In this document: piece after piece, positions 15,120-63,455 of the stretch
Layout of the letters: each line of letters begins with the position of its first letter
How positions within the stretch are numbered: the first letter of the stretch is position 1
Assembly: GCF_002285795.1 (NCBI RefSeq)
Contig: NZ_CP022961.1
Coordinates: forward strand, 2,542,001 to 2,606,000
Source of the DNA: Plantactinospora sp. KBS50
GTDB taxonomy: Bacteria > Actinomycetota > Actinomycetes > Mycobacteriales > Micromonosporaceae
Length of the DNA: 64,000 nucleotides
Reading direction: 5' to 3'
The notes under the pieces: model-generated
What the model saw: the letters and a program-made list of their open reading frames with translations, nothing else
Told to the model about the DNA's origin: nothing
Databases searched by the model: none
Program-made: the position numbers and the translations under genes

Positions 15120-17531
15120 GTGGCCGCCGGCGACGGTGGCCCGGACGGCGTGGCCGGCGTGGCCGGGGGCGGTCCCGACGCGGCGTCCAGCGGTGACCCG
15201 CTGGGCGGGGTGCCGACCAGCCCCATCCCGGACGGCGAGGACAGCGGCACCACCTCGGGCGGCTTCGGACTGGCCAGCGCGCCCACCGGGCGCCGGGTCC
15301 GGGCGCGGCTGGCCAGGTTCAACGCGCCCTGGCAGACCTCGCAGGTCAGCGAGGTGCTGGAGCCGCTGATCGCCACCCACCGGGCGAGCCACCCGAAGGC
15401 CGACGCGCGGCTGTTGCAGCGCGCCTTCGACATCGCCGCCCGCTGGCACTCGGGTCAGTACCGCAAGTCGGGCGACCCGTACATCACGCACCCGCTGGCG
15501 GTGGCCACGATCCTGGCCAACCTCGGGATGGACACCACCACGCTGGTCGCGGCGCTGCTGCACGACACGATCGAGGACACCGACTACAAGCTTGAGGAGA
15601 TGCGCACCGACTTCGGCGCCGAGGTCGCGTTGCTGGTCGACGGGGTGACGAAGCTCGACAAGGTCAAGTTGGGCGACGCGGCGAAGGCCGAGACCATCCG
15701 CAAGATGGTGGTGGCCATGGCCAAGGACCCGCGGGTGCTGGTGATCAAGCTGGCCGACCGGTTGCACAACATGCGGACGCTGTCCTTCCTGCCGGCGCCC
15801 AAGCGGGAGCAGAAGGCCAAGGAGACGCTGGAGATCCTGGCCCCGCTGGCGCACCGGCTGGGTATGAACACGATCAAGTGGGAGCTGGAGGACCTGGCCT
15901 TCGGGACGCTGTTCCCGAAGCGGTTCGAGGAGATCAACCGGCTGATCGGGGAGCACCAGCCGCAGCGCGAGGCGCTGTTGCGGCAGGTGACCCAGAAGGT
16001 GCAGACCGACCTGCGGTCGGCCAAGATCAAGGCGGAGACGACCGGGCGGCCGAAGCACCTGTACTCGATCTACCAGAAGATGATCGTGCGGGGTCGGGAC
16101 TTCAACGACATCTACGACCTCATCGGCGTGCGCATCCTGGTGGAGACCGTGCGGGACTGCTACGCGGCGCTCGGGGTGATCCACGCGAACTGGCAGCCGG
16201 TGCCGGGCCGGTTCAAGGACTACATCGCGATGCCCAAGTTCAACATGTACCAGTCGCTGCACACGACGGTCATCGGGCCCAGCGGCAAGCCGGTCGAGAT
16301 GCAGATCCGCACGTACGCGATGCACCGCACCGCCGAGTTCGGTATCGCCGCGCACTGGAAGTACAAGGAGCAGAAGGGCGCGACCGTGGTCGGCCCGCCG
16401 GCGCACATCGACGAGATGACCTGGCTGCGGCAGCTGCTGGACTGGCAGCGGGAGGCCAGCGACCCGTCGGAGTTCCTGGACGCGCTCCGGTTCGACCTGT
16501 CCAGCCAGGAGGTGTACGTCTTCACCCCGAAGGGCGACGTCATCCCGCTGCCGACCGGCTCGACGCCGGTGGACTTCGCCTACGCGGTGCACACCGAGGT
16601 GGGGCACAAGTGCATCGGCGCGCGGGTCAACGGCAAGCTGGTGCCGTTGGAGTCGACGCTGTCCAACGGCGACGTGATCGAGATCTTCACCTCGAAGTCG
16701 GACACGGCCGGGCCGACGCAGGACTGGCTCGGGTTCGTCAAGAGCCCGCGGGCGCGTACCAAGATCCGGCAGTACTTCAACAAGGAGCGGCGCGAGGAGG
16801 CGATCGAGGCCGGCAAGGACGCGATCGTCAAGGCGATGCGCAAGCAGGGCATGCCGTTGCAGCGGATGCTCAGCTCCGACAACCTGCTGACCATCGCCCG
16901 GGACCTGCACCTGGCCGACGTGGCCTCGCTGTACGCGGCGGTGGGGGACAGCCAGGTCTCCGCCCAGTCGGTCGTGCAGAAGCTGATGGCCTCCTACGGC
17001 GGCGAGGAGGGCGCGGTCGAGGACATCGCCGAGACGGCGGTGGCCACCCGCCCGCCGCGCAGCCGGGCCAGCAGCCACGATCCGGGTGTGGTGGTGCGCG
17101 GGGTCAGCGACGTGTGGATCAAGCTGGCCCGCTGCTGCACCCCGGTGCCGCCGGACGCGGTGTTCGGCTTCGTGACCCGCTCCGGCGGGGTCAGCGTGCA
17201 CCGCGACGACTGCGCCAACGCCGAGGACCTGAAGGTGCAGGCCGAGCGGATCGTCGAGGTCAGCTGGAAGCTCACCGCCGCCTCGACCTTCCTGGTCGCC
17301 ATCCAGGTGGAGGCGCTGGACCGGCACAAGCTGCTCACCGACGTCACCCGGGTACTCTCCGAAGAACGGGTCAACATCCTCTCCGCCACCGTCACCACCA
17401 CCCGGGACCGGGTCGCGGTGAGCCGGTTCAGCTTCGAGATGGCCGACCCGAAGCACCTGGGGCACCTGCTGGCCGCGGTCCGCAAGGTGGACGGGGTGTT
17501 CGACGCGTACCGGGTGACCTCCGGAGCCTGA
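15120..17531 (+). CDS. relA: bifunctional (p)ppGpp synthetase/hydrolase RelA/SpoT (Rel)
   Basis: Rel makes and degrades (p)ppGpp, the stringent-response alarmone, on starved ribosomes. From GTG 15120 the product is 803 residues, close to the usual actinobacterial length. Domains in order: HD hydrolase ([13 protein letters not shown], about 140-150), synthetase ([19 protein letters not shown]), TGS ([25 protein letters not shown]), the conserved Cys region ([18 protein letters not shown]) and a C-terminal ACT domain. Both catalytic domains look intact, so the protein is bifunctional. The real start probably lies upstream at 14760 or 14770 behind a one-base loss. A strong hairpin ends the transcript at 17634. 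Confidence 0.93.
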
Positions 17532-17633
17532 CCTCCGCCGGGCCGGAGCCGGTCCTGCGCGGCCCGGCCGCCGTCGTCCCGCTGCGTGTTCGGGCGCCGG
17601 GTACGCCCCGACCTCAGACTTCAGACCTCGGGA

Positions 17634-17673
17634 ACGGACCAGCCCGCCCCGATACGGGGGCGGGCTGGTCCGT
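17634..17673. terminator. hairpin between relA and the convergent cyclophilin gene
   Basis: Arms 17634-17650 and 17657-17673 form a perfect 17-bp GC-rich stem with a 6-nt loop. It lies between two convergent genes, so it could stop transcription from both sides. No U-tract follows on the plus strand. Confidence 0.75.
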
Positions 17674-17688
17674 ACCGAAAGTCCAGGC

Positions 17689-18519
17689 TCACGCCTGGGC
17701 CATGGTGAGGTCCTTGATCAGCACTTCCTTCTTCGGGTGACCGCCACCGGCCTGCTCGGCGAAGGCGCCGTCGTCGCCGGCCTCCGCAACCTCGTTGACG
17801 ATGTCCATGCCCTCGGTGATCGTGCCCAGGACCGTGTAGCTCGGATCGAGCTGGGAGTCGCCGTACACGATGAAGAACTGGCTTCCGGTGCTGCTCGGCG
17901 CCTGGGTCTTGGCCATCGCGATCACGCCGGCCGGGTACGGCGGGCGCTTGTCGGTGGGAAGGTTCTCCTCGGCGTACCGGTAGCCCGGACCGCCCTGCCC
18001 GTCGGTGTCCCGGTAGCCCTCGCCGGTGGCGCTGGGGTCACCGCACTGGAGGACCTGGATTCCCTCGGTCACCAGCCGGTGGCACTTGGTGTTGTCCCAG
18101 AAGTCCTTGCTGGCCAGGTACTCGAAGCTGGCCGCGGTGCACGGGGTGGCCGCCCGGTCGACCTTGGCCTTGATCGCGCCCAGGCCGGTGTCGATGGTCA
18201 GAATGTCCGTTCCGGTCTTCGGTACCGTGACGGGCGGCTCGCCGACGTCCTTGACCTGCGGGGTCTTCTCGTCGGCGGTGAGCTTGGTCCAGGTGCACTC
18301 GGCGGTCCCGCTGTCGGCCGCGACGTTCTTCTTCTTGCCGGAGTCGTTCATCGCGACCAGTGCCCAGACGCCCCCCGCGACGACCAGCACCAGTGCCGCA
18401 CCGCCCGCGACGAGGTTGCGCGTCCGCCGGCGCCGGCGCGCCTGTTCGGCGCGTTCCCGCATCTCCTTTTCCAGTCGCGCCTTGGCGGCGGCGCGCTGCC
18501 GCTCTCTCGTGGACGTCAC
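17689..18519 (-). CDS. membrane-anchored cyclophilin-type peptidyl-prolyl isomerase
   Basis: This enzyme would catalyse proline cis/trans isomerisation outside the membrane. The product is 276 residues from GTG 18519, which has GGAGGAG just upstream. It shows a basic coiled cytoplasmic N-terminus (rich in Arg/Lys/Glu), one membrane span (about 37-57), a linker, then a cyclophilin domain with CHRLVTEGIQVLQCGDP, GVIAMAKTQ, the signature GSQFFIVYGDS and YTVLGTITEGMDIV. The active-site Arg often found in FHR is CHR here. A second copy lies immediately upstream on the same strand, indicating tandem duplication. Confidence 0.9.
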   Translation of the reverse strand: MTSTRERQRAAAKARLEKEMRERAEQARRRRRTRNLVAGGAALVLVVAGGVWALVAMNDSGKKKNVAADSGTAECTWTKLTADEKTPQVKDVGEPPVTVPKTGTDILTIDTGLGAIKAKVDRAATPCTAASFEYLASKDFWDNTKCHRLVTEGIQVLQCGDPSATGEGYRDTDGQGGPGYRYAEENLPTDKRPPYPAGVIAMAKTQAPSSTGSQFFIVYGDSQLDPSYTVLGTITEGMDIVNEVAEAGDDGAFAEQAGGGHPKKEVLIKDLTMAQA

Positions 18520-18568
18520 GTGGCTCCTCCTGGACGTGTCCGGTGGTGCTGGGGGGTGGACCGGGTGG

Positions 18569-19482
18569 TCAGGACCGGCCGCTGGCGCTCGCTGCGGGGT
18601 CGGCCGACGGTACGTCGGACGGCGGGCCGTCGGCCGGCGCGGTGGACTGGTCCGGGGCCGCCGCCGACTCCGGTTCGCCGACGGTGAGGCTCTGGACCAC
18701 CACGTCGGTTTCGGGCTTGACCTTGGCTCCCGAACCATTGTCCACGGTCGGCAGGGCACCGATCTTCTCGACCACGTCCAGCCCGGCGGTGACCTTTCCC
18801 ACCACCGAGTAGGCGGGCGACTCCGGGCTGAAGTCCTTGAAGAAGATCAGGAACTGGCTCCCGTTGACTCCCGGGGCGTGTTGATCATGGCCACCGTGCC
18901 GGCCGGGTACGCCGGGGGCTGCTCGGGCGCCGGGCTGGCCGACGGGTCCGCCGCCGGCACCTCCGGGACGTTCTCGTTGTAGAACGAGTACGCGGGGCCG
19001 CCCTGGCCGCTGTCGCCGGGGTCGCCGCAGTGCAGCGCGCCCTCGGTCGTGATCTCGTGGCACTTGGTGTTGTCGAAGAACTGCTTGCCGGCCAGGTAGG
19101 CGAAGCTGGCGCCCGCGCACGGCGCGCTGGCCAGGTCGAGCGAGACGGTGATCGGATCACCCTGGTTCGTGGTGATCGTCATCGGCCGGGTGCCGCTGGT
19201 CGGCAGCCCGGTGGTGGGCGGCTCGCCCACGTCCTTGGCGTCCGGATTGGTGGCGGTGTCCACCGGGGTCCAGATGCAGACGTCCTCGGCCACCGGCGTG
19301 GGCTCATGATCGAAGGCGCCCAGCGCCCAGGCCGTGCCGCCGCCGACGAGCAGGAGCGCGACCACCACACCGATGGCGGCCTGGACCCGACGGCGTCGCC
19401 GCAGTGCGGCGGCCCGTCGGGCCATCTGCCGGTCGAGCTTGGCCCGCGCCAGTTTGCGCTGCCGGTCCCTGCTGGAAGGCAC
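18569..19482 (-). pseudogene. second membrane-anchored cyclophilin, frameshifted as sequenced
   Basis: This tandem paralogue of the downstream isomerase begins at GTG 19482 behind GAGAGGGGA. The first frame gives the basic N-terminus, the membrane span (about 35-56), and the cyclophilin core to AGTVAMINTPRE. The second frame continues with VNGSQFLIFFKDFSPES and the rest of the fold to the stop at 18569. The break is at the CCC/GGGG junction 18870-18876; one extra C restores INTPRGVNGSQF, an uninterrupted family sequence of about 304 residues. The gene is therefore probably intact in the organism. It lies 50 bp from the first copy and is divergent from the hydrolase at 19719. Confidence 0.82.
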
Positions 19483-22424: not shown

Positions 22425-23471
22425 ATGGGACCCATGAGGTCTACGCTCCGCCGTCTCGCCATCACCGCGGCAGCCGGCTCCCTCGTCGCCGGCGCGCTGG
22501 CCGGGGCGCCGGCCAGCGCCGCACCGGCCGCCGCATCCGCCGACACGGCCGCGGCGATCGCTCAGAAGCTTGGTGACCGGGCCGCCGGCAGCTACGCCGA
22601 CGCGTCCGGCAAGATGGTGGTCGCCGTGACCGACGCGGCCGCCGCCAAGACGGTGCGCGCCGCCGGCGCCACCCCCAAGCTCGTCTCGCGTGGCGCGGCG
22701 CAGCTGCGTGCCGCCACCGACACGCTGGCCGCCACCGCCAGCGTGGCCGGCACCGCCTGGTGGATCGACCCGGCCACCAACCAGGTCGTCGTCTCCTACG
22801 ACAGCACGGTCACCGGCGCCAAGCTGGCCACCGTGCAGGCCGCGGTCAGCAAGCTCGGCGGCACCGTCCGGATGCAGTCCGAGGCGGGCGTGCTGAGCAA
22901 GCGCCTCTCCGGCGGCCAGGCCATCTACGGCGGTGGCTACCGCTGCTCGCTCGGCTTCAACGTCCGCAGCGGCAGCACGTACTACTTCCTCACCGCCGGG
23001 CACTGCACCAACCTCGCCACGACCTGGTACTCCAACTCCAGCCGTACCGTGCAGATCGGCACCCGGGCGGGGACCAGCTTCCCGGGCAACGACTACGGCA
23101 TCGTCCGGTACACCGACGGGTCGACCCCGCCCGGCAACGTGTACCTGTACAACGGCAGCTACCAGGACATCACCACCGCCGCCAACGCGTACGTCGGCGA
23201 GTCCGTCCGGCGTAGCGGCAGCACCACCGGCGTGCACAGCGGCTCGGTCAGCGCCACCGGCGCCACGGTGAACTACGCCGAGGGCAGCGTCTCCGGCCTG
23301 ATCCGCACCAACGTCTGCGCCGAGGGCGGCGACAGCGGCGGCTCGCTGTTCAACGGCACCATCGCCCTGGGTCTCACCTCCGGCGGCAGCGGCAACTGCT
23401 CCTCCGGCGGGACGACCTACTTCCAGCCGGTCACCGAGCCGCTCAGCGTCTACGGCGTGAGCGTCTACTGA
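22425..23471 (+). CDS. secreted chymotrypsin-like serine protease (S1E, streptogrisin/alpha-lytic type)
   Basis: The protein is made as a pre-pro-enzyme of 348 residues from ATG 22425 behind GGGAGG. It has an Arg-containing N-terminus and signal peptide with Ala-X-Ala cleavage near residue 30, an alpha-lytic-type propeptide (about 32-160) that guides folding and is removed, then the mature domain. The catalytic triad is visible: H193 (LTAGHC), D223 (GNDYGIV), S304 (GGDSGGSLF). Paired cysteines flank the His and Ser as in streptogrisins. It probably degrades external proteins for nutrition. A terminator hairpin follows at 23488. Confidence 0.93.
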
Positions 23472-23487
23472 TCCACCCCCACCGATC

Positions 23488-23515
23488 GGGCCGCCGGGCA
23501 TCCGCCCGGCGGCCC
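23488..23515 (+). terminator. terminator of the protease gene
   Basis: A perfect 11-bp stem (23488-23498 with 23505-23515), 6-nt loop, followed by CTTCGTCG. It lies 17 bp after the protease stop. Confidence 0.7.
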
Positions 23516-23550
23516 CTTCGTCGTACCGGCCGAAGGCGTCGCACCCGGTC
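23499..23550. repeat. 52-bp direct repeat, copy 1 (left edge of inserted segment)
   Basis: Bases 23499-23550 are identical to 25305-25356. The copy covers the loop, 3' arm and downstream flank of the protease terminator. The minus-strand hypothetical gene ends exactly at its right edge, with its stop codon at 23549-23551. Confidence 0.9.
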
Positions 23551-24385
23551 AGTCGCCGGTGAGTAGCCCATCGCTGAGGACCACCCAGCCATGCGGCGCC
23601 TCGCACTGCACCCGGATCGTCACCTTCTCCGCACCGGAAACATCGGAGGTCATTGGCTTGGGGTCGCTCATCAGCGCATCGAACGGCTGCCCCCTGCGGT
23701 TGACCACGAAGGTGCCGTCCCGCTGCGGCAGGGCGACGTAGACCGTCACACGAACCCGGCTGTCCCTGTCGTCGCTGGCGGGAAAGTAGGCCCGCACCGT
23801 GGCCGACATTTCCACGTACCGCTGCTTCACCAGGTAGGTGACCTCGCGGTAGAGATCACCGGTGACGTTGCTCGGGCAGGTCATGGTGACCGGGCGGTCG
23901 TAACCCGGCTGCTCGCGCAGCGCGCGGGGCAGTTCGGCGAGGTTGCCGGTGCCCGCCTCCACGGGCAGGGCATCGAGGTGGCTGCCGGCGGGGGTCGACG
24001 GTCCGATCGGTCCGGTCGGCTCAGGCGTCGCGGCGCCCGGTCCGGGCGCTGAGCTCGTCGCGGTCGCCGCCGGGGCGGGGGTGGACTCGTGCCCGCGGAG
24101 CATGAGGTACCCCGGAACGCCGGCAACCACGGCGACCAGCACACCACTCAGGGCGATGACCTCCCCTCGCCGCCAGGGCGGCTTACTTCGGAGCGTGCCC
24201 GTTTCCGCCGGTCTCGGGGTAGCGGAGGGTGCTTGGTTCGCCGGCACGATTCTCCCGAAGCATTTGGTCGACAAGGGAAGGTCGACAAGGGAAGACAACA
24301 GCGGATCTCCATCATCCGGTCGTTTCCCGTTGTCGTCTCGGCTGGCGGTTGTCGGTTTCCCGATAGCCGTCGTGGTATTGCCCAT
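23549..24385 (-). CDS. membrane-anchored protein of unknown function
   Basis: I do not recognise this family. The product is about 278 residues from ATG 24385, whose ribosome site is weak, so the start is uncertain. It shows a polar cytoplasmic N-terminus of about 75 residues, one membrane span (about 76-97), a Pro/Thr/Ala-rich linker, and an extracytoplasmic domain of about 150 residues. That domain has two cysteines (MTCPSN and VQCEAPHGW), which could form a disulphide, and two beta-rich stretches (SRVRVTVYVALPQRDGTF, EKVTIRVQCEAP). It is divergent from the next gene, which has the same overall architecture, and codon use is less GC-biased than in the neighbours. Confidence 0.65.
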   Translation of the reverse strand: MGNTTTAIGKPTTASRDDNGKRPDDGDPLLSSLVDLPLSTKCFGRIVPANQAPSATPRPAETGTLRSKPPWRRGEVIALSGVLVAVVAGVPGYLMLRGHESTPAPAATATSSAPGPGAATPEPTGPIGPSTPAGSHLDALPVEAGTGNLAELPRALREQPGYDRPVTMTCPSNVTGDLYREVTYLVKQRYVEMSATVRAYFPASDDRDSRVRVTVYVALPQRDGTFVVNRRGQPFDALMSDPKPMTSDVSGAEKVTIRVQCEAPHGWVVLSDGLLTGD

Positions 24386-24451
24386 GAGATAAACGGCATC
24401 CGGCATCTCCGTCCGGCACACAAGCATCTGTATCCGTGTTTGGAGTCGTGC
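24386..24451. promoter_or_regulatory. 66-bp divergent promoter region of the unknown pair
   Basis: The gap between the two divergent starts is short and relatively A/T-rich. It must hold both promoters and would allow common control. TGGAG (24441-24445) serves the plus-strand start at 24452. I see no clear -35/-10 pair. Confidence 0.3.
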
Positions 24452-25258
24452 ATGCCCGACGAATCTCATGGTCGCGTTCACGGGTCGGGCGCGGGCGCAC
24501 CCGGCGCCACGTCGGCCGACAGCCCTGGTGCACACCCCCGTTCCGGCCGGAGACGACTCGGCCCGTTGGTCGTCGTCGGCACGATGACCGCGGCAATGCT
24601 GCTGGCGGTGGCTTCCATGATGGTCGCCTGGCGCGCGCTCGATCAGGCCAGGGACGCCAAGTCGATCGCGCTGTCCAACGGAGGGCAGCGGCCCGGCCCG
24701 ACGGCGACGACACCGACCGCCGAGCCGCCGCGACCAACCGACTCGGGCGGGGGCGGGGATCCCACCTTCCTGGAACCTTCGGAGCCGGATACTCCCCGCT
24801 CGCCGGGGGCGCCGCCCGACCTGAACGCCCGCACCGCGTACAACCCGAGGTACCAGGACCAAACCATCACGCTCAGCGCAGCCGAATGCACCTCCAGCAT
24901 GAGTGCCGATCTCGACGAGCCCCGGGCGAACGTCGCCTCGGCCGGAAGCGACCTCACCTTCTACCAAGGATGTGGGGTCAACGCCGCCCGGTTGCGGTTG
25001 GGAGAGAAGGTCGATGGAACGAAGTCGGCCCAACCCGGAATGGCACCACAGGAATGTGCTGAGCAGATCAGGCAGGCGCCGATCGCCGGGAACGACGCCA
25101 TCCCGGTGCGCAAGGGCATCACCTTTTGCGCGACCACCAATTACGCCGCCGCCAGGGAAAGCGGACGGCCATGGATCATGGTGCTCGCGGAGATTACCGG
25201 CGTCGGAAATGACGGTGCGGTCACCCTTAAATTGACGGCCTGGGACATCCCCGGCTGA
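24452..25258 (+). CDS. membrane-anchored protein of unknown function
   Basis: The product is 268 residues from ATG 24452 (GGAG 6 nt upstream). It has a cytoplasmic N-terminus of about 35 residues with an RSGRRR patch, one membrane span (about 38-60), a Pro/Ser/Thr/Gly linker, and an extracytoplasmic domain of about 140 residues. The domain contains four cysteines (AAECTSS, YQGCGV, PQECAEQ, ITFCATT) and ends in a beta-rich WIMVLAEITGVGNDGAVTLKLTAWDI segment. This resembles sensor-like domains that follow the membrane span in many actinobacterial hypothetical proteins and some Ser/Thr kinases, but no kinase domain is present. Function unknown; possibly pairs with the divergent neighbour. Confidence 0.7.
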   Translation: MPDESHGRVHGSGAGAPGATSADSPGAHPRSGRRRLGPLVVVGTMTAAMLLAVASMMVAWRALDQARDAKSIALSNGGQRPGPTATTPTAEPPRPTDSGGGGDPTFLEPSEPDTPRSPGAPPDLNARTAYNPRYQDQTITLSAAECTSSMSADLDEPRANVASAGSDLTFYQGCGVNAARLRLGEKVDGTKSAQPGMAPQECAEQIRQAPIAGNDAIPVRKGITFCATTNYAAARESGRPWIMVLAEITGVGNDGAVTLKLTAWDIPG

Positions 25259-25294
25259 TCCGGTCGTCTGAGTGGGTCGATTCGAGAGCCGAAG

Positions 25295-25321
25295 GGGTCG
25301 CCGGCATCCGCCCGGCGGCCC
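25295..25321 (+). terminator. terminator-like hairpin after the plus-strand unknown gene
   Basis: Arms 25295-25304 and 25312-25321 pair over 10 bp with one G-T wobble and a 7-nt loop. They overlap copy 2 of the 52-bp repeat. It follows the stop at 25258 by 36 bp. Confidence 0.6.
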
Positions 25322-25356
25322 CTTCGTCGTACCGGCCGAAGGCGTCGCACCCGGTC
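25305..25356. repeat. 52-bp direct repeat, copy 2 (right edge of inserted segment)
   Basis: Identical to 23499-23550. The two copies bracket about 1.75 kb containing the two divergent unknown genes. This suggests that the segment arrived by recombination between copies, or that the terminator-plus-flank was duplicated on insertion. Confidence 0.9.
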
Positions 25357-25470: not shown

Positions 25471-27276
25471 GTGATCCGTACCCAGAAAGCCGGGAGCCTG
25501 CGCGCGACGGACGCCGGCGCGACGGTGACGCTCGCCGGTTGGGTGGCCCGGCGCCGCGACCACGGCGGGGTGATCTTCGTCGACCTGCGCGACGCCTCCG
25601 GCGTGGTGCAGGTGGTGTTCCGCGAGGAGGACGCGCACGCGCTGCGGAACGAGTTCTGTGTGCGGGTGACCGGCGAGGTGACCCGGCGCCCCGAGGGCAA
25701 CGAGAATCCCGAGCTGCCGACCGGTGGGATCGAGGTGACCGCGACCGACCTGGAGGTGCTCTCCGAGGCCGCGCCGCTGCCGCTGCCGGTGGACGACCAG
25801 GTCGAGGCCGGTGACGACGTACGCCTCAAGTATCGCTACCTGGACCTGCGGCGCGGCGGGCCGGCGCGGGCCATCCGGCTGCGCTCCCGGGCCAACCAGC
25901 TGGCCCGCGGCGTGCTGCACGCGCACGACTTCCTGGAGATCGAGACTCCCACGCTGACCCGGTCCACCCCCGAGGGCGCCCGGGACTTCCTGGTCCCGGT
26001 CCGTCTCCAGCCCGGCACCTGGTACGCGCTGCCGCAGTCGCCGCAGCTGTTCAAGCAGCTGCTGATGGTCGGCGGGATGGAGCGGTACTACCAGATCGCC
26101 CGCTGCTACCGGGACGAGGACTTCCGGGCCGACCGGCAGCCGGAGTTCACCCAGCTGGACATCGAGATGTCGTTCGTCACCGAGGACGACGTGATCGCGC
26201 TCGGCGAGGAGATCGTCGCGGCGCTCTGGTCCGACCTGGCGGGCCACCGGATCTCCCAGCCGATTCCGCGGATCACCTGGCACGACGCGATGGCCCGGTA
26301 CGGCTCGGACAAGCCGGACCTGCGCTACGGCGTCGAGCTGACCGAGCTGACCGACCACCTGCGCGGCACCCAGTTCCGGGTGTTCGCGGCCGCGATCGAC
26401 GCGGGCGGGTACGTGGGTGCCGTGGTGATGCCCGGCGGTGCCGCGCAGAGCCGCAAGGAACTGGACGGCTGGCAGGACTGGGCGAAGGCGCGGGGTGCGC
26501 GCGGCCTCGCGTACGTGGTGCTGGACGCCGAGACCGGCGAGCCGCGCGGCCCGGTGGCCAGGAACCTGTCGGCCGAGCACCTGGGCGGGCTCGCCGACGC
26601 GGTGGGCGCGAAGCCCGGCGACGCGATCTTCTTCGCCGCCGCCGCGCACGCCCGCCAGGCGCAGGAGTTGCTGGGCGCGGCCCGGACCGAGATCGCCCGG
26701 CGGGCCAACCTGGTCGACGAGAGCGCCTGGGCGTTCTGCTGGGTGGTGGACGCGCCGATGTTCGAGCGCACCGACGAGGGCGGCTGGACCGCCGTGCACC
26801 ACCCGTTCACCTCACCCAACGCCGACTGGGTGGACCGGTTCGAGTCCGCGCCGGACCGCGCGCTGGCCTACGCGTACGACATCGTCTGCAACGGCAACGA
26901 GATCGGCGGCGGCTCGATCCGTATCCACCGCGCCGACGTGCAGCGCCGGGTCTTCGACCTGCTGGGGATCACCCCGGACGAGGCGCAGGACAAGTTCGGC
27001 TTCCTGCTGGAGGCGTTCAAGTACGGCCCGCCGCCGCACGGCGGCATCGCCTTCGGCTGGGACCGGGTCTGCATGCTGCTGGCCGGCGCGGACTCGATCC
27101 GCGAGGTCATCGCGTTCCCGAAGACCCGGGGTGGCTTCGACCCGCTGACCGGGGCACCCACTCCGATCACCGGTCAGCAGCGGGCCGAGGCGGGCATCGA
27201 CGCCAAGCCGAAGCCGCCGGCGGCCCCGCACGCCGGTACGGCCGGCCCGGCGGCCCCGGTCGCCGACCCCACCTGA
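25471..27276 (+). CDS. aspS: aspartyl-tRNA synthetase
   Basis: AspRS of the bacterial type, 601 residues. It has an N-terminal OB anticodon-binding domain ([23 protein letters not shown]), class II catalytic core with [22 protein letters not shown] and motif 2 [19 protein letters not shown], the bacterial GAD insertion domain (about 300-420), motif 3 ([16 protein letters not shown]) and a short Pro/Ala-rich tail. The GTG at 25471 has GAGGAG about 10 nt upstream. Bacteria without AsnRS often use a non-discriminating AspRS with GatCAB; this cannot be judged here. Confidence 0.96.
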
Positions 27277-32701: not shown

Positions 32702-34893
32702 CACGGCGTAGCCCGGACCAGCCGGGTGACGGTCCGAACGAGCGGCGCGAACCGGCCGACGGGCCGCGTCGGGGGCGTGCCCGGTTCGAGCCCGGGCCGG
32801 AGGCGTCGGCGGCGGACGGCGAGGGCTTCCACCGGCCGCGGCACGGCAGCCACGGCGCGGCCGAGGACAGCGGCGAGATCCGCCGGCCGCGGCACGCCGG
32901 CGCCGAGCAGTCCGACCCGCACCGCCAGGGCATGCCGGCAGAGGGCCCGGCCCGGCCGGCCCGGCCGTCCGACTGGCTGCGCCGCGAGCGTGGCGGCCGG
33001 CCGTCCCCGGCCGGCGGCGCCGCGCCGACCCCGCCGCCACCCGCACCGTCGCCGGGCCGCCCGGCCGGCCCACCGCCCGGGTCCGGCATGCCGCCGTCCG
33101 GCCGTCCGCCGGTGCCGCCGGGTGCCGCCGGGCCGCCGAGAGCGGCTGGTCCGTCCGCACGGCCGGTGAGCGGTCCGGCCGGTCGTCCGCCGGTGCCGCC
33201 GGGGGCTGCCGGTCCGTCGTCGCGTCCGGTGAGTGGCCCGGCCGGTCGTCCGCCGATCCCGCCGGGGACGCCGGTGCCGCCGGGAGCCGCCGGTCCGTCG
33301 TCGCGTCCGGTGAGCGGCCCGGCCGGTCGTCCGCCGGTGCCGCCCGGCCGAGGCGGCCCCGGTACGCCGGCCGGTGGCCCGCAGCCGGGCCGGGCGCGTC
33401 CCGTCCCCGGCGGCCCGAACCCTCCCGCCGGCGCCCAGCCGCCGGCCGGTCCGAACATCCCGGGAGCCCGTCCCGGTGCCCCCGCCGGGCGGAGCGCGCC
33501 GCCGCGGCCCGGGTCCGGTGTGGAGCCGGGCCGGGGTTCCGCCCGGCCACCGGCCCGACCCGGGGGTGGTCCGGGCGGCGCCGCGCCGGTCCCCGGGGCG
33601 CCCGCGCGGCCGGACGGCCGGCCGCCGGCACCGGGTGGTCCCGCGCCGCGGACCGCGGCGCCGCACGGCACCGGCGTCGTGAGCGGCCCGCTGCCGACTC
33701 CGGGCGGCCCGACCGACGCCCCGCCCCGTCCGCCCGGCGCGAACCCCGCGTCCCGCTCGCCCGGCGCGAACCCTCCGCCCCGGCCGGCGGGTGCCGGCCG
33801 GGCGGCCCCGCCCGGCGCCAACCCCGCGTCCCGCTCGCCCGGCGCCAACCCGGCGTCCCGCTCGCCCGGCGCCAACCCCGCGTCCCGGCCGTCTGGTGCC
33901 CTGCCGGGCACCGGGGCATCGCCGGCCGGTGGCGGCAGACCGCCCGCCGGCAGCGCCGCGCCGCCGCGCGCCGGTGGCGCCGCAACACCGCCCGCCGGTG
34001 GCGCCGCTCCGTCGCGTACGGCCGGTGCCGCGCCCTCGACGCCCGTGCCGCCGGCGCGGGCCGGTGCCGGGACGGCGGCGGTGCCCGCCGGGCCGGGCGG
34101 CGCGGGGACGCCGACGCCGGTGCAGCCGGGACCGGCATCCGGCCCGACCCGGGACGCCGCCGGCACCGCCGCCCGGGACGCCGCCGGCACCGCCGCCCGG
34201 GACGGCGCCGGCAGCGGGTCCCGGGACGGCCGCAGCCATCCGCTGTCGGCCGGGGTCGGTGTGGTCCGCGACGCCCAGTCCGAACTGCGCCGGCAGATGC
34301 GGGAGAAGCGCCAACTGCGGCTGGCCTCCCTCGTCGTGGCCTGCGTGGTGCTGCTCGCCGCGCTGCCGCTGTACTTCGGCCTCCGCACGGTCGGTCGGGA
34401 CCCGGTCTTCACCTCCCTGGACGACCTCGGCCTGCCCGGCTGGGCGGCCACCGGCACGGTCGACGACATCAGCGGCAACCGCTGGTGCCTGATGGAATGC
34501 CGGCTGCGCGAACGCATCACCCGGTCCAGCCGCGAGCCGGACGAGACGAACAAGGTGTACACGGCCGCGCTCACCGCGGCCGGCTGGCGGCCGTGGCAGC
34601 CGCCGCTGTGCCCCGAGCAGAAGGTGGACGGGCACTACGGCTGCTGGCGGCGGGACGAGCTGACCCTGGACCTGTGGGTGCGCAAGCCGACCTGCACCCT
34701 TGTCGCCGAGCCCAGCGTGCCGCCGGACGGCCAGGTGCAGCCGCCGGCGGAGGAGCGCAAGGACGACGAGGACTGCGCCGGCTCGCAGGTGTCGCTGAAG
34801 GTGCGCAACGCCGTCGACGACGACCGGACCCGGCCCGGGCCGGACATCAGCCCGTCGATCGAGGACATCGATCCCGAGCCCGGCCCTTCCTGA
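32698..34893 (+). CDS. very proline/glycine/alanine-rich single-span membrane protein
   Basis: I do not recognise this family. The product is 731 residues. The GTG start overlaps the rarA stop (GTGA), so it is translationally coupled to rarA. Residues 1-535 are disordered and dominated by Pro, Gly, Ala, Arg and Ser, with internal repeats ([17 protein letters not shown] three to four times; GANPASRSP four times). A basic stretch ([14 protein letters not shown]) precedes one membrane span (about 541-563). The external domain of about 165 residues has six cysteines (WCLMEC, PLCPEQ, YGCW, PTC, EDC) and an acidic tail. The long intracellular part resembles proline-rich partner-binding regions of cell-envelope proteins, but no function can be assigned. 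Confidence 0.75.
33110..33900 (+). repeat. internal DNA repeats of the proline-rich gene
   Basis: Units of about 60 bp encoding [21 protein letters not shown] recur between 33110 and 33350. Shorter 27-bp units encoding GANPASRSP recur between about 33730 and 33890. Both keep the frame. Such arrays expand and contract easily, so the length may vary between strains. Confidence 0.7.
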
Positions 34894-61419: not shown

Positions 61420-63455
61420 GTGGACGTGCCGCTGGCCCACCTGGACCGGCCGTTCGACTACCTGGTCCCGGCCGAGCTGGCCGGCGCCGCGGTGCCCGGC
61501 ACCCGGGTGCGGGTCCGGTTCGCCGGGAAGCTTGTCGACGGCTGGCTGCTGGAGCGCGCCGCCGAGTCGCCGCACGGCGGCCGGCTGGCGTACCTGGACA
61601 AGCTGGTCTCCCCGGAGCCGGTGCTGGCCCCCGAGATCGTCCGGCTGGCCCGCGCGGTGGCCGACCGGTACGCCGGCGGCCTGGCCGACGTGCTCCGGCT
61701 CGCGGTGCCGCCCCGGCACGCCCGGGTCGAGCGCGAGCCCGCCCCGACCGCGCCCGATGCCACCGCCGCCGATGCCACCGCCGTCGCCGAGACGACCGCC
61801 GTCGCCGATGCCACCGCCGTCGCCGAGACGACCGCCGTCGCCGATGCCACCGCCGGCGCCGAGACGACCGCCGGCGAGCACGCTGGCGCCGCACCCGGGA
61901 CCGTCGCGGACGAGGGCTGGCGGGCGTACCCGGCCGGCCCGGCGTTCCTGGCGGCGCTCGCCGACGGCCGCGCGCCGCGTGCCGTCTGGTCGGCGCTGGC
62001 CGGCGAGGACTGGCCGGCCCGGTACGCCGCGGCGCTGGCCGCCGCCGTGCGCTCCGGCCGCGGCGCGGTGGCCGTCGTTCCGGACGCCAGGGATCTGGAC
62101 CGGCTCGACGCGGCGCTGACCGCGGCGCTCGGCCCCGGCCGGCACGTGGCGCTGACCGCGGCGCTCGGCCCGGCCCGGCGCTACCGGGCGTTCCTGGCCG
62201 CCCGCCGCGGCGCGGTGCCCGTGGTGATCGGCACCCGGGCGGCGGCGTTCGCGCCGGTGCACCGGCTGGGTCTGGTGGCCATCTGGGACGACGGCGACGA
62301 CCTGCACGCCGAACCGCGAGCGCCCTATCCGCACGCCCGGGAGGTGCTGCTGACCCGGGCGCACCATGCGGGCGCGGCGGCGCTGGTCGGCGGGTTCGCC
62401 CGCAGCGCCGAGGCGCAACTGCTGGTCGAGACCGGTTGGGCCGTCCAACTCGGACCGGACCGGGCCGGGCTGCGGTCCCGGACCCCCGGGTGGTGCCCAC
62501 CGGCGACGACCCGCAGTTGGCCCGGGACCCGGCCGCCGAGTCGGCCCGGCTGCCCAGCGTGGCCTGGGAGGCCGCCCGGTCCGCGCTCGCGGCCGGGGCG
62601 CCGGTGCTGGTGCAGGTGCCGCGGCGCGGCTACCTGCCCTCGGTCTCCTGCGCCGACTGCCGCGCCCCGGCCCGCTGCGCGCACTGCTCGGGTCCGCTGG
62701 CGCTGCGGTCCGCCCGGTCGGTGCCGGCCTGCCGCTGGTGCGGCCGGCCGGACGCCGCGTACGCCTGTCCCCGGTGCGGCGGCCGGCGGCTGCGGGCGGC
62801 GGTGACCGGCGCCCGGCGGACCGCCGAGGAACTCGGCCGGGCCTTCCCGGGCACGACCGTGCGGACCTCCGGCCGGGAGGAGGTGCTCGCCGCGGTCCCG
62901 GCGGAGCCCGCGCTGGTGGTCGCCACGCCCGGCGCCGAGCCGGTGGCGCCCGGCGGGTACGGCGCGGTGCTGCTGCTGGACGCCTGGGCGCTGCTCACCC
63001 GGGCCGACCTGCGGGCCGGCGAGGAGACGCTGCGGCGCTGGATGGCCGCCGCGGCGCTGGCCCGGCCGGCCGGTGCCGGCGGCCGGGTGGTGGTCGTGGC
63101 CGACGGGGCGCTCGCCCCGGTGCAGGCGTTGCTGCGCTGGGACGCGCCGTGGTCCGCCGGGCGGGAACTGGCCGAACGGCGGGAGCTGGGCTTCCCGCCG
63201 GCGGTCCGGATGGCAAGCGTCACCGGCGCGCCGGCGGCCGTGAACGACCTGTTGGAGCTGGCGCGGCTGCCGGCCGGCACCGAGCAGCTCGGGCCGGTGC
63301 CCGCCGGCGACGGGATCGAGCGGATGCTGCTGCGGGTGCCCCGGTCCGGCTCGGCGGAGCTGGCCCGGGCGCTGCACGCCGCCGCCGGCGTGCGGACCGC
63401 GCGCAAGGCCGGCCAGCCGGTCCGGATCCAGGTGGATCCGCACGACCTGTTCTGA
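61420..63455 (+). pseudogene. priA: PriA (probable primosomal protein N'), frameshifted as sequenced
   Basis: PriA helps restart replication. Two frames join at CCCCC/GGG (62483-62490): the first ends GLRSRTP, the second continues RVVPTGDDPQLARDP; one added C restores one protein of about 680 residues. The N-terminal domain has VDVPLAHLDRPFDYLVP. Eight cysteines form the two zinc sites (CADCRAPARCAHC, CRWCGRPDAAYACPRCG). The ATPase motifs are degenerate: no GxGKT at the Walker A position, and DDGD where DEEH is expected, as known for actinobacterial PriA. The start is uncertain: GTG 61420 or 61426, or an upstream codon in metK; CTG 61357 is also in frame. Confidence 0.85.
61774..61875 (+). 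repeat. 36-bp tandem repeat inside priA, about 2.8 copies
   Basis: Units begin at 61774, 61810 and 61846 and encode ATAVAETTAVAD-type 12-residue repeats. They interrupt the region between the 3'-DNA-binding domain and the degenerate helicase core. The frame is preserved. Confidence 0.8.

Follow-up and report, generated by a model that had tools for sequence, protein, structure and literature searches.

A 54-bp direct repeat that brackets two divergent genes between a secreted protease and aspS in Plantactinospora sp. KBS50 probably arose when the protease terminator was duplicated locally, recently and in this lineage only, so that it is now set around a gene pair that was already older at this place. 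The window (the whole stretch of 64,000 nucleotides analysed, positions 2,542,001-2,606,000 of a single-contig 6.69 Mb genome) was compared with itself, and the exact repeat was found as 54 identical bp at 23497-23550 and 25303-25356, with a spacing of 1806 bp and 1752 bp between the exact copies. Local alignment adds a weaker match that carries the repeat further upstream, as far as CCGA, so that a 69-bp unit (23482-23550) containing the complete protease terminator hairpin aligns with one of 68 bp (25289-25356). The two copies differ by three mismatches and one gap, all within the first 16 bases, which form the 5' arm of the hairpin, and on the right the exact part of copy 1 runs up to the minus-gene stop codon. 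An earlier sequence-only reading had described a 52-bp exact repeat with a terminator arm in both copies and two divergent genes inside; the repeat proved to be two bases longer, the arm is the hairpin 3' arm in each copy, and the genes are the open reading frames at 23549-24247 (minus) and 24452-25258 (plus). The features of the locus, in window coordinates, are as follows.

22425..23471, plus strand: secreted serine protease with an alpha-lytic protease prodomain (Pfam PF02983, E = 1.6e-13)
23482..23550, plus strand: copy 1 of the putatively duplicated unit (69 bp), running from the protease terminator hairpin to the minus-gene stop codon (exact part 23497-23550)
23488..23515, plus strand: terminator hairpin 1, 12-bp stem, ATCC loop
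23549..24247, minus strand: minus gene, predicted membrane-anchored protein with a CBM51/NPCBM-like domain, 232 aa, GTG start
24248..24451, no strand: divergent intergenic region between the minus gene and the plus gene
24452..25258, plus strand: plus gene, predicted membrane-anchored protein with a C-terminal HmuY-like predicted fold, 268 aa
25289..25356, plus strand: copy 2 of the putatively duplicated unit (68 bp; exact part 25303-25356)
25290..25326, plus strand: terminator-like hairpin 2, 5' arm unlike that of copy 1, pairing with the copied 3' arm
25471..27276, plus strand: aspS, aspartyl-tRNA synthetase (Pfam PF00152, E = 7.3e-116)

A chance origin of the 54-bp repeat is excluded by a control of 464 kb, made up of the window and 20 blocks of 20 kb from the KBS50 genome. 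Other exact repeats of at least 30 bp and more than 200 bp apart listed in this control, with at most six listed per block, are confined to one repeated-gene array (L248), and the remaining repeats among those listed are all short-period tandems. The whole genome holds the repeat in two copies, with a next-best match of 21 bp at 95%, and the 12-base tail motif GCCCCTTCGTCG of the repeat occurs at just two genome sites, both in the copies. The array at L248 (G000:C1 6,370,001-6,390,000) is a tandem array at about 17312-19417 with an 803-bp period and exact stretches of up to 427 bp, and the window itself has low-complexity tandem repeats of short period at 33044-33927 and 61745-61867. Long matches to the 69-bp unit in 1.96 Mb of fetched loci were the window's own sites alone (next, 25 bp), and a DNA search of 61 relatives gave no full-length repeat match, the terminator-like matches that were inspected being partial. 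By these searches the repeat appears to be particular to the Plantactinospora sp. KBS50 genome. That the copies are two members of a dispersed repeat or terminator family, brought near each other by chance, is extremely improbable: similar hairpins with GGCCCCTTCGTCGT-type tails do occur in other genomes, as at L123 and L131, and the 14-base pattern GGSCCCTTCGTCGT is present in 16 of 31 genomes, but this genome has only the two copies, which refutes a dispersed repeat family in it. Nor was the repeat found at many unrelated terminators, a prospect that the sequence-only reading had named as telling against its own proposal.

Both the protease and the plus gene are followed by a stable hairpin downstream of the stop codon, a feature of intrinsic terminators. 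Each repeat copy carries the hairpin 3' arm, and each 3' arm pairs with its own local 5' arm, forming a perfect 12-bp stem in hairpin 1 and about 15 pairs (one G-U) in hairpin 2, which has the same 3' arm and an altered 5' arm. Folding energies are -35.4 kcal/mol 3' of the protease and -33.0 kcal/mol 3' of the plus gene, and the fold z-scores of the stretches tested are -4.41 and -2.77, respectively. Neither site was found in a terminator scan for a U tract after the hairpin; terminator hairpins that lack a U tract are usual in high-GC actinobacteria. Only 3 of 21,274 window 20-mers pair equally well with this 3' arm, so chance does not account for the copy 2 arm on the 5' side, which is either an altered duplicated arm or a related arm that was already there. 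An anchored 30-base alignment of the two 5' arms gave nothing significant (142 of 2000 shuffles and 29,430 of 63,632 window positions were equally good), and the similarity between them could also arise from the need of each to base-pair with an identical 3' arm.

The copied unit most likely came from the protease side, because in 36 of 44 loci the GGGCCGYCGG hairpin arm lies at most 130 bp 3' of the protease, against 0 of 16 plus-gene/aspS gaps, because the aspS-side gap has surplus length and because a similar hairpin also stands 3' of the protease at L204, in another genus. The plus-gene/aspS gap is 212 bp in the window against 83-147 bp in 15 of 16 relatives (823 bp in the other one), and 144 bp when one unit is subtracted. 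At L044, 19 of 24 bases behind the protease hairpin match the copied segment, a score that 0 of 200 shuffles reached, in a test that is not clean, as the plus-gene/aspS gaps of L211 and L223 also gave low-probability weak matches to that segment. The argument on copying direction rests on relatives that are about 50% identical in the plus gene. For the DNA right of copy 2, likeness to empty, pair-bearing and other loci is about equal (mean z 3.21, 3.29 and 4.19) and does not separate the models.

In the duplication that we favour, the protease hairpin and the DNA that follows it as far as the convergent minus gene's stop codon, a unit of about 69 bp in all, would have been copied by template switching or by ectopic gene conversion to a site 1.8 kb downstream, in the plus-gene/aspS gap. 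The 5' arm of copy 2 may have been corrected toward its own 3' arm (quasipalindrome correction), and the second hairpin so produced, if it acts as a terminator, could end the plus-gene transcript before aspS. The locus resembles known template switching with quasipalindrome correction in that a short unit is copied nearby and the adjacent bases TC in the 5' arm of copy 1 read AG in copy 2, as the 3' arm would template; it differs in that the process is read from one locus and that arm correction does not account for a C-to-T change and a deleted G in copy 2. Plain duplication followed by drift fits less well, since the copy differences are all in the 5' arm, and templated correction or partial conversion would be needed in addition. 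The same pattern bears on a reading in which related terminators were present at the two sites beforehand and ectopic gene conversion then removed the differences between their right halves. Identity does begin in the hairpin near the loop, with the differences confined to the 5' arm, and the outer stem pairs suit copy 2 better and the inner ones copy 1; with the hairpin arm missing from all 16 plus-gene/aspS gaps of relatives and the aspS-side gap about one unit too long, however, we regard pre-existing paired terminators as quite improbable.

The gene pair appears to be long resident at the protease-aspS place in related bacteria and older there than the duplication in KBS50. At E 0.001, the plus gene was matched in 20 and the minus gene in 28 of 160 Micromonospora genomes; strong matches fell in the same 19 genomes for both genes (plus, E 2.4e-32 or better; minus, E 3.2e-18 or better), and matches outside these 19 Micromonospora genomes were weak and partial. 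The pair is divergent and adjacent in 18 of the 19 Micromonospora loci fetched, and aspS adjoins the plus gene in 17, with the protease on the far side in 16 of these; the exception, L213, begins at a contig end, at the plus gene (no minus gene). Extra genes often lie between the protease and the pair in relatives. The pair also adjoins aspS in L201 and L202, from other genera, and in many Actinoplanes-type genomes a plus-gene homologue immediately precedes aspS, with the minus gene not detected. Other arrangements are a pair of a different branch at L219 and L222 (G173, G274), with no protease or aspS in the fetched stretch, and two consecutive plus-gene homologues beside one minus-gene homologue at L099 / L111 (G042). 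Both gene trees place the window pair beside a group of 13 Micromonospora pairs, with support of 96/92 for the plus gene and 88/89 for the minus gene (not starred). The aspS tree of 92 rows, built without six duplicate loci and without loci lacking an aspS match of more than 400 residues, shows 16 presence/absence changes, with 40 of 89 inner branches weak and gain not separable from loss. No repeat longer than 14 bp was found between the flanks in any of the 16 pair-bearing loci. Presence of the same genes and both repeats in all relatives, which the sequence-only reading had said would count against an insertion, is borne out in part for the genes, which occur in some of the relatives, and in none of the 16 for the repeats.

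Short protease-aspS intervals also occur: 12 of 44 loci have gaps below 450 bp (162-419 bp, 8 of them 162-221 bp). The sequence-only reading had looked to such empty sites as support for insertion; the short gaps do exist, but two pair-less loci keep remnants of the pair. A profile search of 39 pair-less loci recovered 32 C-terminal plus-gene residues at L026 (E 3.8e-11) and minus-gene pieces, C-terminal and from the linker region, at L030 (E 6.4e-13), and no significant pair fragment at the other 37. Pair loss thus occurs, as 2 of 39 pair-less loci keep pair fragments, and at least some of the empty sites are losses. The interval is variable more generally, with extra gene(s) or nothing in L010, L013, L023, L051, L016, L032 and others; the extra genes are presumably an MFS-type transporter or a DUF998-like membrane protein starting with MRAVPNWAVATAAAAPVLL, in one or two copies. 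A literature search found nothing on the protease-aspS gene-pair locus.

Pair-bearing relatives also differ sharply in the pair itself. L210 and L221 share 97% protein identity in the protease and 99% in aspS, with just 37% in both pair proteins, and their DNA flanks are 94.7% and 97.2% identical. L208 compared with L220 and L223 repeats this pattern of conserved flanks and diverged pair, with flank-identity borders within about 100 bp of the minus-gene stop codon on the left and about 55 bp before aspS on the right. Across both sets, flank DNA is 90-97% identical and the pair proteins 37-43%. We take these comparisons to mean that relatives swap the pair as a block between conserved flanks, and that recombination at the site is real in them. 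Surface loci are exchanged between conserved flanks in the manner of the pneumococcal capsule locus, which the conserved flanks and diverged pairs of L210/L221 and L208/L220/L223 resemble; here, the exchange differs in involving two genes only, beside a tRNA synthetase.

Because relatives swap the pair as a block and the repeat ends at the minus-gene stop codon, a repeat-generating insertion was kept as a rival. The pair would have entered an empty protease-aspS site, either for the first time or again after a loss, duplicating 54 bp through a single crossover with a circular molecule or a one-sided homologous invasion, with the terminator as homology. The right border of copy 1 at the minus-gene stop codon is better explained in this way than by duplication, and the borders of the block swaps in relatives lie close to this codon on one side and about 55 bp upstream of aspS on the other. 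If the copies recombined, the protease-aspS gap left would be 193 bp (computed), much as in several of the short-gap loci. We nevertheless consider insertion rather unlikely: the 16 other pair-bearing loci all lack the repeat, the remnants at L026 and L030 show that pair-less sites can arise by loss, the window pair stands next to Micromonospora pairs in both gene trees as descent predicts, and such a repeat is not left by ordinary homologous exchange. Under the favoured duplication, the 193-bp product means instead that recombination between the copies could delete the pair, leaving a gap like that of several pair-less relatives. The 1752 bp between the copies contain two membrane-protein genes alone, with no recombinase match in Pfam or NCBIfam, and no inverted repeats pairing both insert borders were seen among the 25 longest of 47 inverted pairs. 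A mobile element with target-site duplication was rejected on the lack of a recombinase gene inside, the 16 of 16 pair-bearing relatives without the repeat and the remnants at L026 and L030.

The sequence-only reading had also pointed to a lower GC content of the enclosed DNA and called for GC to be computed. GC3 in the window is indeed 0.80 for the plus gene and 0.85 for the minus gene against 0.96 for aspS and 0.95 for the protease, and over 18 loci in relatives mean GC3 is 0.87 (minus) and 0.90 (plus) against 0.97 (aspS). Low GC as a mark of foreignness was rejected, as the relatives' pairs carry the same bias, a family trait. Of the two origins that the sequence-only reading had left side by side, duplication of the terminator flank is the better supported, and insertion of a foreign module is mostly unsupported, given the pair at this site without the repeat, the remnants, the trees and the GC values.

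The minus and plus proteins share a common plan, in which a hydrophobic segment at the N-terminus is joined by a Pro/Thr-rich linker to a C-terminal domain, and both are predicted to be membrane-anchored. Neither window protein has a Pfam match (for the minus protein, 0 families at E up to 1). Alignments of the window sequence with 35 of 38 plus-gene relatives (A1) and with 28 of 30 minus-gene relatives (A2), leaving out near-duplicates and one sequence with an unknown base, yielded confident models of the C-terminal domains. Five of the 29 members of the minus-gene alignment match PF08305 (NPCBM/CBM51; best E 1.1e-8), and the minus-gene model superposes on the CBM51 of 7jrm (Z 13.8, rmsd 2.4, 124 residues). 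On this basis the minus-gene domain is assigned as CBM51/NPCBM-like, with carbohydrate binding as a prediction only; it differs from CBM51/NPCBM (PF08305) in being carried by a single predicted transmembrane helix with a Pro/Thr linker. For conflict systems, NPCBM proteins have been described as sensors inside the cell that are fused to effectors (PMC8195603), whereas the window minus-gene protein is membrane-anchored by prediction. The plus-gene domain model superposes on 6r2h (VIA-align; Z 11.7, rmsd 2.4, 115 residues), and HmuY-like or comparable Bacteroidetes proteins fill the first nine rows of the fold search (Z 11.7 to 7.7), with the next at Z 5.4. Foldseek gave no significant match for the plus gene, a sequence search of it to E 5 matched no HmuY chain, and no His lies in invariant or nearly invariant columns of its alignment. 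HmuY binds heme via paired histidines. The C-terminal domain of the plus gene is described as HmuY-like in predicted fold, which would liken it to PinO, HmuY and BfrB, while the sequence search and the conserved columns show no such likeness.

The locus is a case in which a direct repeat around genes of odd composition can be mistaken for an insertion, and in which the relatives point to old genes and a young repeat. The duplication event itself is ordinary, and the exchange of the pair in relatives is the more interesting by-product. A broader and distinctly tentative idea, which we think doubtful, is that the protease-aspS gap of Micromonosporaceae serves as an exchange site for a two-gene surface cassette, encoding one CBM51-like and one HmuY-like membrane-anchored protein, that is block-swapped among species, deleted and regained, with the 54-bp repeat as a handle or scar by which the cassette can loop out. 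In Micromonospora, the block-exchanged pair between the protease and aspS may offer a compact natural system for studying the causes of rapid cell-surface protein turnover in soil actinobacteria.
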